The translations under genes were made by a program, and so were the position numbers. The notes under the pieces were generated by a model. That model made no database searches, was not told the DNA's origin, and was given only the letters and a program-made list of their open reading frames with translations. From Burkholderiales bacterium RIFOXYD12_FULL_59_19 (GTDB lineage Bacteria; Pseudomonadota; Gammaproteobacteria; Burkholderiales; Burkholderiaceae_C), in assembly GCA_001771065.1 (NCBI GenBank), contig MESQ01000038.1:1-64000 (forward strand): a stretch of 64,000 nt of DNA, in the 5' to 3' direction. Position 1 is the stretch's first letter. Every line of letters begins with the position of its first letter. Shown here in pieces: positions 18,861 through 44,620 of this stretch.

Positions 18861-20063
18861 TTATTTTGCCGCTATTGTGCCGAAATCGGGGTCATCCTCA
18901 TGGCTTGCATGGAAATCTGCCGGCAACACCGGCGCCGCAGCTGGCGCCTGAATGGTCTTGACCAGCATTTGACGCAGCGCTGGCACGCCGTCACCGGTCT
19001 GGGCGCTCAAAAAGATGCGCGGTGTAGGCAGCCCCGCCAGATCATAGGTATCTTGCACCACGTGGGGCCGCAACGTCGGCTCGACCTGGTCGAGCTTGTT
19101 GAACACCAGGATCTGCGGAATGTCACCCGCGCCAATTTCAGACAGCACGCGCTGCACTTCGACCATTTGCTCCAAGTGGTTGGGGCTGGAAAAATCGACC
19201 ACATGCAACAGCAGATCCGCATCCACGGCCTCCTGCAGGGTCGCCTGAAAGGCATCCACCAGCCCGTGCGGCAGATCGCGAATAAAACCCACGGTGTCCG
19301 ACAAAGAGATCACCCGCCTGAGCTCACCCAGGTACAACTGCCGGGTGGTGGTGTCGAGCGTGGCGAACAATTGGTCGGCGGCATAAACACGCGCCTTGAC
19401 CAGTGCGTTAAACAGCGTGGACTTGCCGGCGTTGGTATAACCCACCAGCGAAATGTTGAAAGCATCTCGCCGCTCACGCTGGCGACGCTGCGTTTGCCGC
19501 TGCCGCTTGACCTTGACGAGGCGTTCCTTGATGCGCTTGATGCTGTCGGCAATCATGCGCCGATCAAGCTCAATCTGGGATTCACCAGGCCCGCCCCGCA
19601 TGCCGATGCCGCCGCTTTGGCGTTCCAGGTGCGACCAGCGGCGTACCAGGCGCGTGCTTAAATACTGCAGCCTAGCCAGTTCGACTTGCAACTTGCCTTC
19701 ATGGCTACGCGCCCGTTGGGCAAAAATTTGCAAGATCAGCAGCGTGCGGTCATTGACAGGGAGTTCGAGGTGGCGCTCAAGATTGCGTTGCTGCGCCGGA
19801 CTCAGGCTTTGGTCAAACAACACCTCTTGCACACCCAGTTGAGTGGCAAGTTGCTTGATTTCATCGGCCTTGCCGCTGCCAATAAAAAGCGCCGCATCGG
19901 GGGCTTTGCGCTTGCAGGTCACACGCGCGACCGGCGTCAGACCAGCCGTCTGAGCGAGCAGACCAAGCTCTTCGAGTTCGGAGTCAAAAAAGGGGAGACC
20001 AAAATCAACCCCCACCAGCAAGGCGGGGGTGATGGGACGCTCAGGCTGCTGCAGGTTGTTCAC
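18861..20063 (-). CDS. hflX: Ribosome-splitting GTPase HflX
   Basis: GTPase that rescues stalled or heat-damaged ribosomes by splitting them. The N-terminal HflX domain contains [18 protein letters not shown] and the linker [13 protein letters not shown]. The G domain has [14 protein letters not shown] (G1), DTTTRQL (G2), [13 protein letters not shown] (G3) and VFNKLDQ (G4). I prefer the GTG at 20063 (reads [10 protein letters not shown]), which overlaps hfq by 23 bp and sits behind GCTGAGG; the track's upstream ATG would overlap hfq by 62 bp. Either way it is translationally coupled to hfq. Confidence 0.93.
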
Positions 20064-20289
20064 CCTCAGCCACTGAGAAATTGACGGCCCGACCGGGCAC
20101 AATGGTCGAAATGGCGTGTTTGTAAACCATTTGTGTCACGGTGTTACGCAACAACACCACGTACTGATCAAACGACTCAATCTGACCTTGAAGCTTGATG
20201 CCATTCACCAAATAAATTGACACCGGAACATGCTCCCGACGCAAGGTGTTCAGAAATGGATCTTGCAAGAGTTGGCCTTTGTTATTCAC
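20041..20289 (-). CDS. hfq: RNA chaperone Hfq
   Basis: An 82-residue Sm-like hexamer-forming RNA chaperone that pairs small RNAs with mRNAs. Sm1 is [28 protein letters not shown] and Sm2 contains [10 protein letters not shown], with the distal-site QLLQDPFLN near the N-terminus. A GTG start is used, with GGAGA 7 bases upstream. The short C-terminal tail ([10 protein letters not shown]) is betaproteobacterial in style. First gene of the hfq-hflX-hflK-hflC-DUF2065-hisZ-purA series. Confidence 0.97.
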
Positions 20290-20511
20290 GATATTCTCCG
20301 TGTTGTGAATTTTAAGAAGGGGCTACGATAACACAGTGCCATCGCGCATCCGGGTTGGGGGTGCGATTCAACCTAAATTCCGCAGTTGACCGCTTTGGAA
20401 TCTCAATCAGATCATGAAATGATTGAATTTTTTGGCTCCGATCAAGTTCACCCGTTGGGTGAGGGCGCGTCCAACTGTCGAATCTAGGCTCAAACTGAGT
20501 GTGGAGGGATT

Positions 20512-20611
20512 TTGTAGGACCGAATTTATTCGGGCCGGCGGCCATGGGCCACCCCAACGGGCGCCAACAAGACCAACTTGTTGGCCTGCCCGAATAAATT
20601 CGGCCCTACAA
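20512..20611. repeat. 100-bp inverted repeat with 24-nt arms
   Basis: The arms 20512-20535 and 20588-20611 are reverse complements with one mismatch. Each arm itself contains the small palindrome CCGAATTTATTCGG-like core. The 52-base interior includes GGCGGCCATGGGCC and a second small palindrome, CCAACTTGTTGG. No T run follows, so a simple terminator is unlikely. It resembles an intergenic palindromic (REP/BIME-like) unit. Confidence 0.75.
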
Positions 20612-20643
20612 GAGGCAAAGTTGGCCCCACTGTGCTGAATCCA

Positions 20644-20675
20644 CCCCGGATTGCGCTTCGCTTCATCCGGGCTAC
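20644..20675. repeat. REP-like palindrome
   Basis: The segment reads CCCCGGATTGCGCTTCG and then CTTCATCCGGGCTAC. Its ends CCGGAT/ATCCGG pair around GCGCTTCGC. The complementary motif GTAGCCCGGAT is a widespread type of short intergenic palindrome in Proteobacteria (from memory, not searched). It lies 7 bases from the left end of the 226-nt repeat. A matching CATCCGGGCTAC fragment lies near the other 226-nt copy, at about 44569-44580. Confidence 0.55.
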
Positions 20676-20682
20676 GGAATGC

Positions 20683-20908
20683 GATTCAAACGGCGTGCGA
20701 TCAAAAGACCTTGAGGCATGGTGATTGGGTCATGTGACCGGGCTTTGGAGCGACAGGTGCGCGCAGAAAGCGTGTGGCGTACTTATTGGCAGCATCGCGC
20801 GTGATTTCGCTCCAAAACCGCATGCGCATGACCCGGCCGCCGTGCCGTGCGTGTAAGGCGCCTGTTCACGCCTCGGAATCCGCCGCCGCCAACCCACCAC
20901 TTTGAATC
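20683..20908 (+). repeat. 226-nt structured repeat, copy A
   Basis: The unit begins with GATTCAAA and ends with TTTGAATC. A second copy of exactly the same length lies at 44331-44556 in the opposite orientation, with many substitutions but no indel. Internally it folds back on itself: GGCATGG (20715) with CCGTGCC (20840), GGGTCATGTG (20727) with CGCATGACCC (20825), and TTTGGAGCGA (20744) with TCGCTCCAAA (20807). The reading frame that is open in copy B contains a TGA here, and differences are not concentrated at third positions, so it is not a gene. It is either a structured RNA, a non-autonomous mobile element (MITE-like) or both. Confidence 0.8.
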
Positions 20909-20973
20909 GAACCCCCGTGCGGAAGGGGAGCGAATCCCGCAAGAACACCAGCAACACAAAAAAACAGGGCGGA

Positions 20974-22311
20974 TCAGGCAGCCTTGTCGGCAAACGGGTT
21001 GCTCGACGTCTTGAACTCAATACGCAGTGGCGTCCCCACCAGATCGAATTCCTTGCGGAAACGCCCTTCGAGAAAACGTTTGTAGGCATCGGTGACGTGT
21101 TCCAGCGAATTGCCGTGAACAACGATGACCGGCGGGTTCATGCCACCCTGATGCGCATAACGCAATTTGGGCCGGAACATGCCTGAACGTTGCGGACTTT
21201 GAAACTGCACCGCCTCCAGCAACAGCCTTGTCAGCACGGGGGTTGACATCTTGCAGTTGGCGGCCTTGTAGGCCTGCGCAATAGACGCCCACAAAGGCCC
21301 CAGACCCTGGCGCTTTTGCGCCGAAATAAAGTGCATGTTGGCAAACTTCAAAAATGGCAGTCGGGTCTCAACCGAGCGTTTGACCAGTTCGCGCTGGTAC
21401 TCATCCACCGCATCCCACTTATTGACAGCCAGCACCACGGCACGGCCGTTCTCAAGAATGTAACCGGCAATATGGGCATCCTGGTCGGTCACACCCTGGG
21501 TCGCATCAATCAGCAACAGCACCACATGGGCCGATTCAATCGCTTGCAAGGTTTTTACGACTGAAAACTTTTCGATCGCCTCGAACACTTTGCCCCGACG
21601 GCGCAAGCCAGCGGTGTCAATCAGTTCAAATTTTTGACCGTTGCGCTCGAACGGCACCGAGATAGCGTCGCGTGTGGTACCCGGCAGATCAAAGGCGACC
21701 AAGCGCTCTTCGCCCAGCCAAACATTGATCAGAGTGGATTTGCCGACATTAGGTCGCCCGGCCACTGCCAGTTTGATAACGCCGGGCTGCTCGGCTTCCT
21801 GGACTTCGTCTTCAGTTTGCAGCAATGGCAACAAGGCAAGATCCAGCAACTCGCGGATGCCCTGGCCGTGCGCCGCGGACACCGCAAGCACTTCACCAAA
21901 TCCGAGTTCATAGAACTCGACCAGTTGGCTACCGGCTAGCATGCCTTCGGCCTTGTTGGCGACCATCACACAGGGTTTTCCCAGACGGCGCAGGTAATTG
22001 GCAATGTCATGGTCCTGCGCCGACACGCCAGCACGGGCATCCACCACAAAAATCACCACATCGGCCTCAGCCACCGCCTGACGTGTTTGTTTGGCCATTT
22101 CCTTGTAGATACCGGCGCTGGCATCGGGCTCGAAACCGCCGGTGTCAATCACAATGTACTCATGCTTGCCCAGTTTGCCATTGCCGTAATGCCGATCGCG
22201 CGTCAAACCCGCAAAATCTGCCACGATGGCATCGCGCGATTTGGTGAGACGATTGAACAACGTCGACTTACCAACGTTGGGTCGCCCGACCAATGCCAAA
22301 ACAGGTTTCAT
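20974..22311 (-). CDS. der: Ribosome-assembly GTPase Der (EngA)
   Basis: A 445-residue protein with two tandem G domains, as is diagnostic. The first has [15 protein letters not shown] and ANKAEG; the second has [28 protein letters not shown] and [12 protein letters not shown]-like C-terminal domain ends in [18 protein letters not shown]. It acts in maturation of the 50S subunit. It lies 27 bp downstream of bamB, following the conserved bamB-der order; a long repeat-rich gap separates it from hfq. Confidence 0.97.
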
Positions 22312-42149: not shown

Positions 42150-42235
42150 ATTTCGCTGACTTTCATTTCCCTTGAGGAAACTTTGGCTGGTTAAAGCTGA
42201 TGGTTGATTAACCTCCCGCGTCACGGCTTGACCGT
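42150..42235 (-). ncRNA. Candidate sucA leader RNA motif
   Basis: The transcript just ahead of the sucA ATG contains three small hairpin candidates in order: GGTT-AATC-AACC, CTTT...AAAG, and TTTCC-TCAAG-GGAAA, the last of which sequesters the purine-rich AAGGGAAA. Burkholderiales are known to carry a conserved sucA RNA motif in this 5' UTR position. Location and taxon fit, but I judged this by eye without a covariance model, so it is tentative. Confidence 0.4.
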
Positions 42236-42277
42236 TTGGCGGATGCGACAGTGGCGTTGGAAGGGCCTGATGCAGAA

Positions 42278-42332: not shown

Positions 42333-44228
42333 TCAAGAATTGATCAAATCCTTGATCTGCTGCAAGGCAGCCGGGTCGTCCATGGTGGTCAGGTCGCCGG
42401 GATCGCGGCCTTCACACACTGCCGTGATGGCGCGGCGCAGGCACTTGCCGCTGCGCGTCTTGGGCAGCACGGTGACAAAGCGCACGCGGGCTGGCCGCGC
42501 CACTGCGCCCAGGTCCTTGTCCACGATTTTCATGATTTCGCCCTCCATCTTGAGGGCGCTGGCCTCATCGGCAATCAGGCTGGCGTCCTTGACCACGGCA
42601 AATGCCATGGCGACCTGGCCCTTGAGCTGGTCGGCCACACCCACCACCGCGACCTCGGCCACGTTGGGATGCGCCGAGATACTTTCTTCGATTTCGCGGG
42701 TGCCCAGTCGGTGGCCGGCCACATTGATCACGTCATCGGTGCGCCCCAGGATAAAGTAGTAGCCTTCTTCATCACGGATGCCCCAGTCGAAGGTACTGTA
42801 GATCATGCGCCCGGGAATGGTCGTCCAGTAGGTGCGGACAAAGCGCGCGTCATCGCCCCACACCGTTTGCAGGCAGCCGGGCGGCAGCGGGCCTTCGATG
42901 GCAACCACGCCCTTCTGGTTGGCGCCCTTGAGCTCTTCACCGGTCGCTTCATCAAGCAGTTTGACGTCGTAGCCATAGACCGCCTTGCCAGGTGAGCCGA
43001 ACTTGGTGGGCGCATCGTCCACCCCTTTGCAAATGCTCAGGATCGGCCAGCCCGTCTCGGTCTGCCAATAGTTGTCGACAATCGGTCGGCCCAGGCCTTC
43101 ACTGATCCACTGCGCAGTGGGCTGGTCGAGCGGTTCGCCCGCCAGGAACAAGGCTTTGAGCGTTGACAGGTCGTATTTTTTAAGCAGCGCCGGATCCTGC
43201 TTTTTCAGCACGCGAATGGCGGTGGGCGCGCTGAACATCACTGTGACCTTGTACTTTTCAACCAGGCTCCACCAGATGCCGCCATCGGGGCGGATTGGCA
43301 AACCTTCGTACATGATCGTCGCCATGCCCGCGATCAGCGGCCCGTAAATGATGTAGCTGTGGCCCACCACCCAGCCAATGTCACTGGTCGAGAAATAGGT
43401 TTCGCCCGCTTCGCCGCAGTAAATATGCTTCATGCTGGCAGCCAGCGCCACGGCGTACCCCCCGGTGTCACGCTGCACGCCCTTGGGCTTGCCGGTGGTA
43501 CCGCTGGTGTACAGCGTGTAGCTGGGGTGGGTGGCATCGACCCACTCACATTCGACCACGGCGTCCATGTGTTTTTCACGCAGGTCGGCCCACAGCTTGT
43601 CGCGCCCCGCGACCAATGCCATCGGCACCAGACCGCGATCGACCAACAACACCGATTCGGGCTTGTAGCTCGACAGACTGATGGCTTCGTCGAGCAGCGG
43701 TTTGTAAGCCACCGCCTTGCCGCCGCGTGACCCTGAATCTGCGCTGATAATGACTTTGGGCGCGGCATCTTCAATACGTGTCGCCAACGAGCCGGAAGCA
43801 AAACCGCCAAACACCACCGAGTGGATGGCGCCAATACGCGCACACGCCAGCATGGCAAACGCCGCCTGGGCGATCATGGGCATGTAGATCAAAACCCGGT
43901 CGCCCTTGGCCACGCCCAAGTCCTTGAGGATGGCGGCCATGCGCTGCACTTCGGCGTGTAATTCACGAAACGAATACACCTTTTCCTGATTGGTCTCGGT
44001 CGAGACAAAAATCAGCGCCGCCTGGTCGGCACGGTCTTTCAGATGACGGTCCACCGCGTTGTGGCACAGGTTGGTCACGCCGCCCACAAACCACTTGGCA
44101 AACGGCGGTTTGCTGTAGTCGCAAATCTGGGTCGGCTGAACTTTCCAGTCGATCAACTGGGCTTGTTCGCCCCAGAAACCGTCGCGGTCAGAGAGAGATC
44201 GTTGGTGAAATTCGGCGTATGTGGTCAT
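42333..44228 (-). CDS. prpE: Propionyl-CoA synthetase PrpE
   Basis: A 631-residue AMP-forming acyl-CoA synthetase. The PrpE-type N-terminus is MTTYAEFHQRSLSDRDGFWG. Core motifs: YTSGTTGKPKGVQRDTGGYA (A3), YWQTETGWPI (A5), FDWGIRDEEGYYFILGRTDDVINVAGHRLGT (A7/A8) and the C-terminal lysine region TRSGKCLRRAI. It activates propionate for the methylcitrate or related pathways. AGGAGA lies just before the ATG. It stands as a single gene between sucA and the repeat-bearing gap. Confidence 0.93.
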   Translation of the reverse strand: MTTYAEFHQRSLSDRDGFWGEQAQLIDWKVQPTQICDYSKPPFAKWFVGGVTNLCHNAVDRHLKDRADQAALIFVSTETNQEKVYSFRELHAEVQRMAAILKDLGVAKGDRVLIYMPMIAQAAFAMLACARIGAIHSVVFGGFASGSLATRIEDAAPKVIISADSGSRGGKAVAYKPLLDEAISLSSYKPESVLLVDRGLVPMALVAGRDKLWADLREKHMDAVVECEWVDATHPSYTLYTSGTTGKPKGVQRDTGGYAVALAASMKHIYCGEAGETYFSTSDIGWVVGHSYIIYGPLIAGMATIMYEGLPIRPDGGIWWSLVEKYKVTVMFSAPTAIRVLKKQDPALLKKYDLSTLKALFLAGEPLDQPTAQWISEGLGRPIVDNYWQTETGWPILSICKGVDDAPTKFGSPGKAVYGYDVKLLDEATGEELKGANQKGVVAIEGPLPPGCLQTVWGDDARFVRTYWTTIPGRMIYSTFDWGIRDEEGYYFILGRTDDVINVAGHRLGTREIEESISAHPNVAEVAVVGVADQLKGQVAMAFAVVKDASLIADEASALKMEGEIMKIVDKDLGAVARPARVRFVTVLPKTRSGKCLRRAITAVCEGRDPGDLTTMDDPAALQQIKDLINS

Positions 44229-44620
44229 GGGCTGTCTCCTGTGTTTATAAAACTGAATTCATAATTATGAGCCTTGAGCTTGCATGGTCCTGACGCAGGC
44301 TACCCCAATTGCCAAGCGCTTTATGGATGCGATTCAAAGTTGTGGGCTGGCCGTGGTCGATTCCAGGGCGTTGACTGGCGGCTTTCACGCACGGCACGGC
44401 GACTGGGCCATGCGCGTGCGGTTTTGGCGCGAAATCACGCGCGCCATTGCTGAAAAGTGTGCAGAATGCTTTCTGCGCGCGCCTTTCGCACCAAAGCCCG
44501 GTCACATGACCCAATCACCATGCCTCAAGGTAGTGCGACCCCACACAATTTGAATCACACGCGCGCACCATCCGGGCTACCTATTGCTGTCAAAATAAGA
44601 ATTGCCGTCATTGAAATTGG
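44229..44620. other. prpE upstream region with repeat, no gene
   Basis: A 392-bp gap. It contains the prpE leader with AGGAGA next to the ATG, the second copy of the 226-nt repeat (44331-44556) and a CATCCGGGCTAC fragment (44569-44580). The 89-residue ORF across the repeat is not supported as a gene because the other copy carries a stop in that frame and differences show no codon-position bias. Confidence 0.75.
44331..44556 (-). repeat. 226-nt structured repeat, copy B (inverted relative to A)
   Basis: Ends GATTCAAA and TTTGAATC and length 226 match copy A exactly, in reverse orientation. The longest conserved tract includes the complement of CCTTGAGGCATGGTGATTGG. The main stem reads TTTGGTGCGAAA with TTTCGCGCCAAA in the A orientation: relative to copy A the central A-U pair has become U-G with both bases changed, preserving pairing. 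In the second stem GGGTCATG now faces CATGGCCC, again compatible through a G-U pair. Confidence 0.8.

Follow-up and report, generated by a model that had tools for sequence, protein, structure and literature searches.

A probable MITE-like repeat of Rhodoferax with ISKra4-type ends carries a covarying hairpin of about 136 nucleotides

The structured repeat that occurs twice in the window (the whole 64,000-nucleotide stretch of DNA analyzed) is very probably a non-autonomous, MITE-like Rhodoferax transposon with ISKra4-type ends, most likely moved in trans by an ISKra4-type transposase, and its hairpin appears to be kept folded by selection on the outward-reading single strand. The initial annotation had concluded that no known feature type explained the repeat. 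This was wrong for the whole element: the inverted-repeat ends, the 9-bp target duplications, the empty sites, and a matching insertion sequence (IS) of the ISKra4 family indicate that it is a MITE, unlike the hairpin cargo itself, which is still unexplained. The overall interpretation given in that annotation was partly supported.

Terminal inverted repeats and target duplications

The elements end in terminal inverted repeats, GGGTGCGATTCAAA, which extend up to approximately 23 bp in well-kept copies. Similarity among copies continued outside GATTCAAA as far as GGGTGCGATTCAAA. A search with the 14-mer GGGTGCGATTCAAA, allowing at most 1 mismatch, gave 31 hits in the host genome versus 0 for a reversed control. 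The 9-bp flanks of 31 elements were 57.7% identical, compared with 27.3% when the flanks were shuffled among elements, and the observed value was never reached in 20,000 flank shuffles (maximum, 40.1%). At most 2 flank mismatches were found in 11 of the 31 elements (shuffled mean, 0.49). Flank identity peaked at 9 bp alone, with no signal at other lengths. Well-kept duplications flank L004 (GAGTTTGAG twice) and L074, a 565-bp element with two hairpins (GTCCGACTG twice). The elements bounded by terminal inverted repeats span 127 to 742 bp and contain no transposase gene. The repeats thus have the features of MITEs: they are short and multicopy, with terminal inverted repeats, a 9-bp target duplication, and empty-site spacing (copy A, ten relatives).

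The same ends were also seen around other sequences. In genome G024, exact pairs of GGGTGCGATTCAAA ends lie 82 to 187 bp apart on contigs C70, C92, C182, and C206; these very small MITEs share the ends, but most lack the length for a full hairpin. At L141, a different long inverted repeat (ATGCATCACGGTGCTTACCCAATCAGCCGGGCGATGCGCTTTG..., positions ~2457 to 2625) adjoins a GGGTGCGACTCAAA end and may be a further cargo carried by these MITE ends.

Copies in the window

The two copies described in the initial annotation, at 20683-20908 (+; copy A) and 44331-44556 (-; copy B), were recovered as 226 nt each, with 183/226 positions identical, no indels, and the ends GATTCAAA/TTTGAATC. Their location stood but their extent did not, as the true ends lie further out and the conserved structured core is only about 136 nt.

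Between der (20974-22311, -) and hfq (20041-20289, -) lies a 556-bp insertion with an inverted repeat at each end (20359..20914, +), and copy A occupies its right part. The left terminal inverted repeat, GGGTGCGATTCAAC (20359..20372, +), and the right one, GGGTTCGATTCAAA (20901..20914, -), each have 1 mismatch to GGGTGCGATTCAAA. A second left-type end, GAATGCGATTCAAA (20677..20690, +; 2 mismatches), is internal and adjoins the hairpin. Together with the end at 20914 it bounds a 238-bp single-hairpin unit, and no target duplication was found at this internal end. The hairpin core (20713..20848, +) was placed by covariance model R1 (131.2 bits) and by its fold. It is followed by a tail reaching the right inverted repeat (20849..20900, +), which is common to other single-hairpin copies in the host genome.

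The der-hfq gap is 684 bp in the host and 93 to 123 bp in the 10 relatives in which both gene ends could be called; empty sites in relatives, envisaged in the initial annotation, were thus found for copy A. Removal of the insertion and its duplication leaves 119 bp (684 - 556 - 9), indicating that the inserted piece is most likely 20359-20914 with copy A as its right part. Two separate insertions would be an alternative history.

Copy B is a complete 238-bp single-hairpin element (44325..44562, -) upstream of an AMP-binding/ACAS_N acyl-CoA synthetase gene (42333-44228, -). Its terminal inverted repeats, GGATGCGATTCAAA (44325..44338, +) and GCGTGTGATTCAAA (44549..44562, -), have 1 and 2 mismatches, and its hairpin core lies at 44391..44526 (-; 137.9 bits with model R1, and fold). 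The flanks at 44316-44324 (GCGCTTTAT) and 44563-44571 (GCGCACCAT) are identical at 6/9 positions. The target duplications at the window's own two copies are decayed (5/9 and 6/9).

The middle of the der-hfq insertion contains a 28-nt near-perfect inverted repeat (TTGTAGGACCGAATTTATTCGGGCC..., 20512-20611), probably another small repeat nested in the insertion, and also a 'CCGGATTGCGC...CCGGGCTACG' stretch; both are taken to be nested or recombined repeats. Similar pieces (GTAGGGTCGAC...) adjoin hairpins in L015 and L017. A REP-like sequence, CCGGATTGCGCTTCGCTTCATCCGGGCTACG (20647-20676), directly adjoins the inner end, and variants of it occur near other elements (L025, L141).

Relationship to the ISKra4 family

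The 9-bp duplication combined with GGG ends, a pattern of the ISKra4 family in ISfinder, suggested this family before the enzyme was searched for. Among 61 genomes, the ISKra4 family model gave 1 match above the cut-off (L160; 209.9 versus 205 for NF033572), with an exact 14-mer end just downstream of the match. The L160 IS is 1,421 bp long, and its ends of approximately 23 bp, GGGTGTGATTCAAACTGATGTGG and GGGTGCGATTCAAACTGATGTAG, are like those of the repeats; its flanks, GCACAAGGC/GCACAAGGA, form an 8/9 duplication. In a second genome (G106), fragments of several near-identical IS copies were found at contig ends, along with 18 hairpins. Ends matching those of an ISKra4-family IS were thus found in two genomes, both of which also carry hairpins.

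The L160 transposase is encoded in two frames with a -1 shift and an A8 run in the overlap. A transposase spread across two frames with a -1 shift is known from the ISMich2 group of the ISKra4 family, whose transposase superfamily has inverted repeats of 18 to 39 bp and duplications of 8 to 9 bp (PMC3942029). The likeness to this family (prokaryotic Mutator-like, p-MULT 4, with the two-ORF ISMich2-type layout) therefore covers the GGG ends, the inverted repeats of about 20 bp, the 9-bp duplications, and the frame arrangement of the L160 enzyme. Unlike ISKra4 insertion sequences, the repeats lack a transposase, and the hairpins that they contain are absent from the IS.

An ISKra4-type transposase most likely did the moving, judging from the sequences of the ends. 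Acting in trans, such an enzyme would mobilize the repeat and leave 9-bp target duplications. Some ISKra4 elements prefer insertion upstream of promoters. No ISKra4 transposase was detected in the host genome, so the copies in the window resemble fossils or rely on an enzyme since lost, and we infer mobilization by an ISKra4 enzyme from the shared ends. The L160 IS carries no hairpin, indicating that the hairpin is not needed for the movement of that element.

Structure and covariation of the hairpin

The core of the family is a hairpin of about 136 nt. Both window copies folded better than dinucleotide-shuffled sequences (z = -3.1 for copy A and -5.9 for copy B). The paired changes reported in the initial annotation were borne out, both in the main stem (GGAGC/GCTCC in copy A, GGTGC/GCGCC in copy B) and in the second stem (GGGTCATG/CATGACCC to GGGTCATG/CATGGCCC). 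RNAalifold analysis of 57 hairpins (alignment A1) gave 42 pairs, 17 of which had compensatory double changes. Pairing was retained in 97.6% of the 2,392 pair cells in these 57 diverse copies, compared with 90.3 ± 0.3% after shuffling, and both sides had changed in 182 cells, compared with 55 ± 7. When the partner was slid by 1 to 3 columns, pairing fell to 31 to 48% (at most 47.8%). The segments ACCGGGCTTTGG and CCAAAACCGCATGC were nearly invariant, although they are partly unpaired. Hairpin-centred segments looked non-coding in 94% of cases, versus 29% of random segments.

At pairs with a Watson-Crick consensus, departures were G-U in 233 cells versus A-C in 32 (107 hairpins below 90% identity), a ratio of about 7:1 that is descriptive, as the cells are sequences and not events. 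The same bias was found in left and right hairpins taken separately. A cruciform would lack this bias, since each G-T mismatch in one strand corresponds to A-C in its complement. The excess of G-U over A-C indicates that the selected strand is the one reading 5' to 3' outward from the element, and it fits a folded single strand under selection, RNA and single-stranded DNA (ssDNA) equally well. The covariation over 57 distinct copies and the G-U bias strongly support the earlier view that selection acts on nucleic-acid structure and not on protein. The outcome that the initial annotation had named as refuting its reading did not occur: further copies exist, and covariation became stronger with more homologues.

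Possible role as RNA

Our preferred reading of the hairpin is that it functions as a folded RNA in outward transcripts. The 136-nt hairpin with its fixed internal loops may stabilize, process, or insulate RNA around the insertion, or may be bound by protein. This reading is modelled on ERIC and NEMIS, since their stem-loops act on neighbouring mRNAs (PMC2229807). Correia/NEMIS and ERIC/IRU elements (PMC2229807) are, like the present repeats, small and intergenic, with inverted repeats, many copies, and a long stem-loop able to act in RNA. Compared by description, the present repeats differ in their usually two outward hairpins, covariation at 17/42 pairs, fixed internal loops, and gene-flanking forms. 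The many natural variants of the family form a large covariation data set for a conserved hairpin without an Rfam match, and a probable transposase family can be assigned to the mobile element that carries it. The main rival to a role in RNA is a role as the end of a gene cassette, considered below.

Paired hairpins

The common Rhodoferax form is 500 to 700 bp long and has two outward-facing hairpins. At other Rhodoferax loci, the outward-facing order was found in 50 of 52 neighbouring hairpins, with a spacer that was nearly always 98 to 249 bp. When 31 pairs were oriented by their spacers, left hairpins best matched left hairpins in 31/31 cases and right best matched right in 30/31, indicating that the pair spread as one unit. 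The single-hairpin form of the window is therefore best read as a reduced form of the paired element; the two-hairpin element of 500 to 700 bp would have been reduced to the forms seen there. Some copies (L145, L147) are without the hairpin centre.

The spacers between paired hairpins showed no excess of sigma-70-like promoters, and divergent small RNA promoters in the spacer were rejected on this basis. The sequence 'CATAGCT...GGGCTACAGCCTGTTTT' recurs in many spacers of paired elements (e.g., L074, 6630-6764) and is presumably a dispersed Comamonadaceae repeat. An AEC-type transporter gene between two hairpins of the host genome was considered as a cassette and dropped. The left hairpin there has its own end pair and the right one its own left-type end, suggesting two separate insertions around the gene.

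Gene-flanking pairs in sister genera

Hairpin pairs that enclose genes were found in two other genera, g152 and g155. In g152, four hairpin pairs 0.9 to 1.7 kb apart each enclose one main ORF, and these ORFs are unrelated (211, 242, 184, and 352 aa). In g155, the gene between the paired hairpins encodes a 132-aa SseB-like protein; the g155 hairpin shares the architecture, although its stems are quite different (z = -8.9). Two g152 units, L249 and L250, have the same ends around different genes: their left ends are 82.8% and their right ends 90.5% alike, and their cargo is unrelated, whereas left and right ends within one g152 unit are 57% alike. On both sides, similarity between the g152 units ends at the hairpin base or close to it, and cargo similarity is limited to a 37-bp match between L249 and L253. 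No close match to ISKra4-type ends was found on both sides of the g152 and g155 gene-flanking pairs. The hairpin occurs without ISKra4-type inverted repeats in two other genera, so an origin within the MITE is not evident.

The hairpins could instead be the termini of an older mobile cassette, in which two outward hairpins enclose one gene and which is moved by an enzyme reading the folded single strand, with an emptied Rhodoferax cassette later wrapped in ISKra4 ends. This origin is possible but doubtful. Besides the shared ends around unrelated cargo in g152, their limit at or close to the hairpin base, and the SseB-like gene in g155, it is favoured by a GNAT gene and a nucleotidyltransferase-like gene that lie between such hairpins in Rhodoferax. 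However, the gene-bearing pairs are few and several are near contig ends, they have no shown empty site or target duplication, no enzyme was found, and repeats inserted on either side of a host gene would look alike, as at the AEC-type transporter gene. The two partner hairpins expected past locus edges were not found. Somewhat more speculative is the broader proposal that the outward pair bounds a mobile gene cassette of a new kind, present in Comamonadaceae and read by an enzyme as folded single-stranded RNA or ssDNA. On this view, ISKra4 ends would have captured cassettes that had lost their gene, giving rise to the Rhodoferax repeats, including the window's two.

No clear precedent was found for the pattern of gene-flanking hairpin pairs in the sister genera. 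Integron gene cassettes (attC) likewise link a folded, strand-specific hairpin to individual accessory genes. In the present pairs, by contrast, the gene has an inverted hairpin on each side, arrays were not seen, and no attC core motifs (R'/R'') were noted in alignments A1 and A2. Mobile insertion cassettes, with passenger genes between IS ends, are alike in having a transposase-less gene between inverted ends, but in g152 and g155 hairpins form the ends, and the pairs with a gene inside showed no ISKra4-type ends around them. The hairpin is tied to single-gene units in the sister genera and may represent a new route for moving accessory genes. The accessory genes in hairpin units include one candidate defence gene: at L073 (2202-2807, -), a winged helix-turn-helix (wHTH)-nucleotidyltransferase protein between two hairpins strongly matches the PADLOC candidate PDC-M05A (3e-74). 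At L258 (1625-3154, -), a 509-aa protein with a weak CoiA_N match adjoins a g152-type hairpin, whose partner was not found within the next 5 kb.

REPIN-like transfer and template switching

Far less probable than either cassette proposal is that the repeats are giant REPINs, with a RAYT (TnpA_REP) transposase mobilizing the inverted hairpin pairs in ssDNA form. The inverted pairs, short spacer, compensatory changes, and strand-specific fold are as in REPINs (PMC3116915), and a Y1 transposase was present in 12/12 carrier genomes tested. However, the hairpin was absent from all 30 of 30 loci around Y1 transposase matches, it is far longer than a REP, and a DDE enzyme is suggested by the 9-bp duplications together with the long inverted repeats. 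A GTAG/CGTC tetranucleotide at the hairpin foot was found at no fixed place when alignment A1 was inspected by eye. The repeats resemble REPINs/RAYT systems (PMC3116915) as inverted structured-repeat pairs around a short spacer that spread as a unit, but each hairpin here is about 136 nt, with inverted-repeat ends and 9-bp duplications, and none was found beside a RAYT. A RAYT/REPIN link was rejected, since the transposases are present in carriers with no hairpin nearby.

About as improbable is maintenance of pairing by template switching within an imperfect palindrome instead of selection: one arm of a palindrome can serve to correct the other and some copies lack the hairpin centre, but arm correction should remove G-U and A-C equally, yet their ratio is 7:1, the unpaired internal-loop segments are nearly invariant, and left and right hairpins remain distinct.

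Distribution of the family

The search of the host Rhodoferax genome for more copies proposed with the initial annotation gave 40 matches, or 33 with covariance model R1, which was built from 57 diverse hairpins (approximately 35 to 40 overall). The two copies described at first are therefore not a chance likeness but a sample of a family. With model R1, hairpin copies were found in 34 of 90 Rhodoferax genomes; the largest count was at least 36 in one genome, as 36 candidates were scored in each. In named records, an exact 29-base core pattern was found in Rhodoferax, unnamed Comamonadaceae, and uncultured beta-proteobacterial MAGs, and also in Rhodoferax sp. U2-2l, whose record is not marked as a MAG. 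Among 251 genomes of the family (141 genera), good matches were found only in Rhodoferax and g152, with a weak match in g155. When 399 genomes from across the order were searched with R2, a broader model, the host genome alone was returned, under strict filters that lost weak matches.

Plasmids searched with three hairpin types and phages searched with the g152-type hairpin gave zero matches, and the conserved hairpin segment had no exact match in IMG/VR, which argues against a plasmid or phage origin. A known RNA family was rejected after an Rfam search of the window, in which relaxed E-values gave nothing meaningful at the repeat and the sole hit above the gathering score lay elsewhere. This hit is a SucA RNA motif (RF01070, 69.4 bits) at 42154-42248 (-), immediately upstream of the gene for 2-oxoglutarate dehydrogenase E1.
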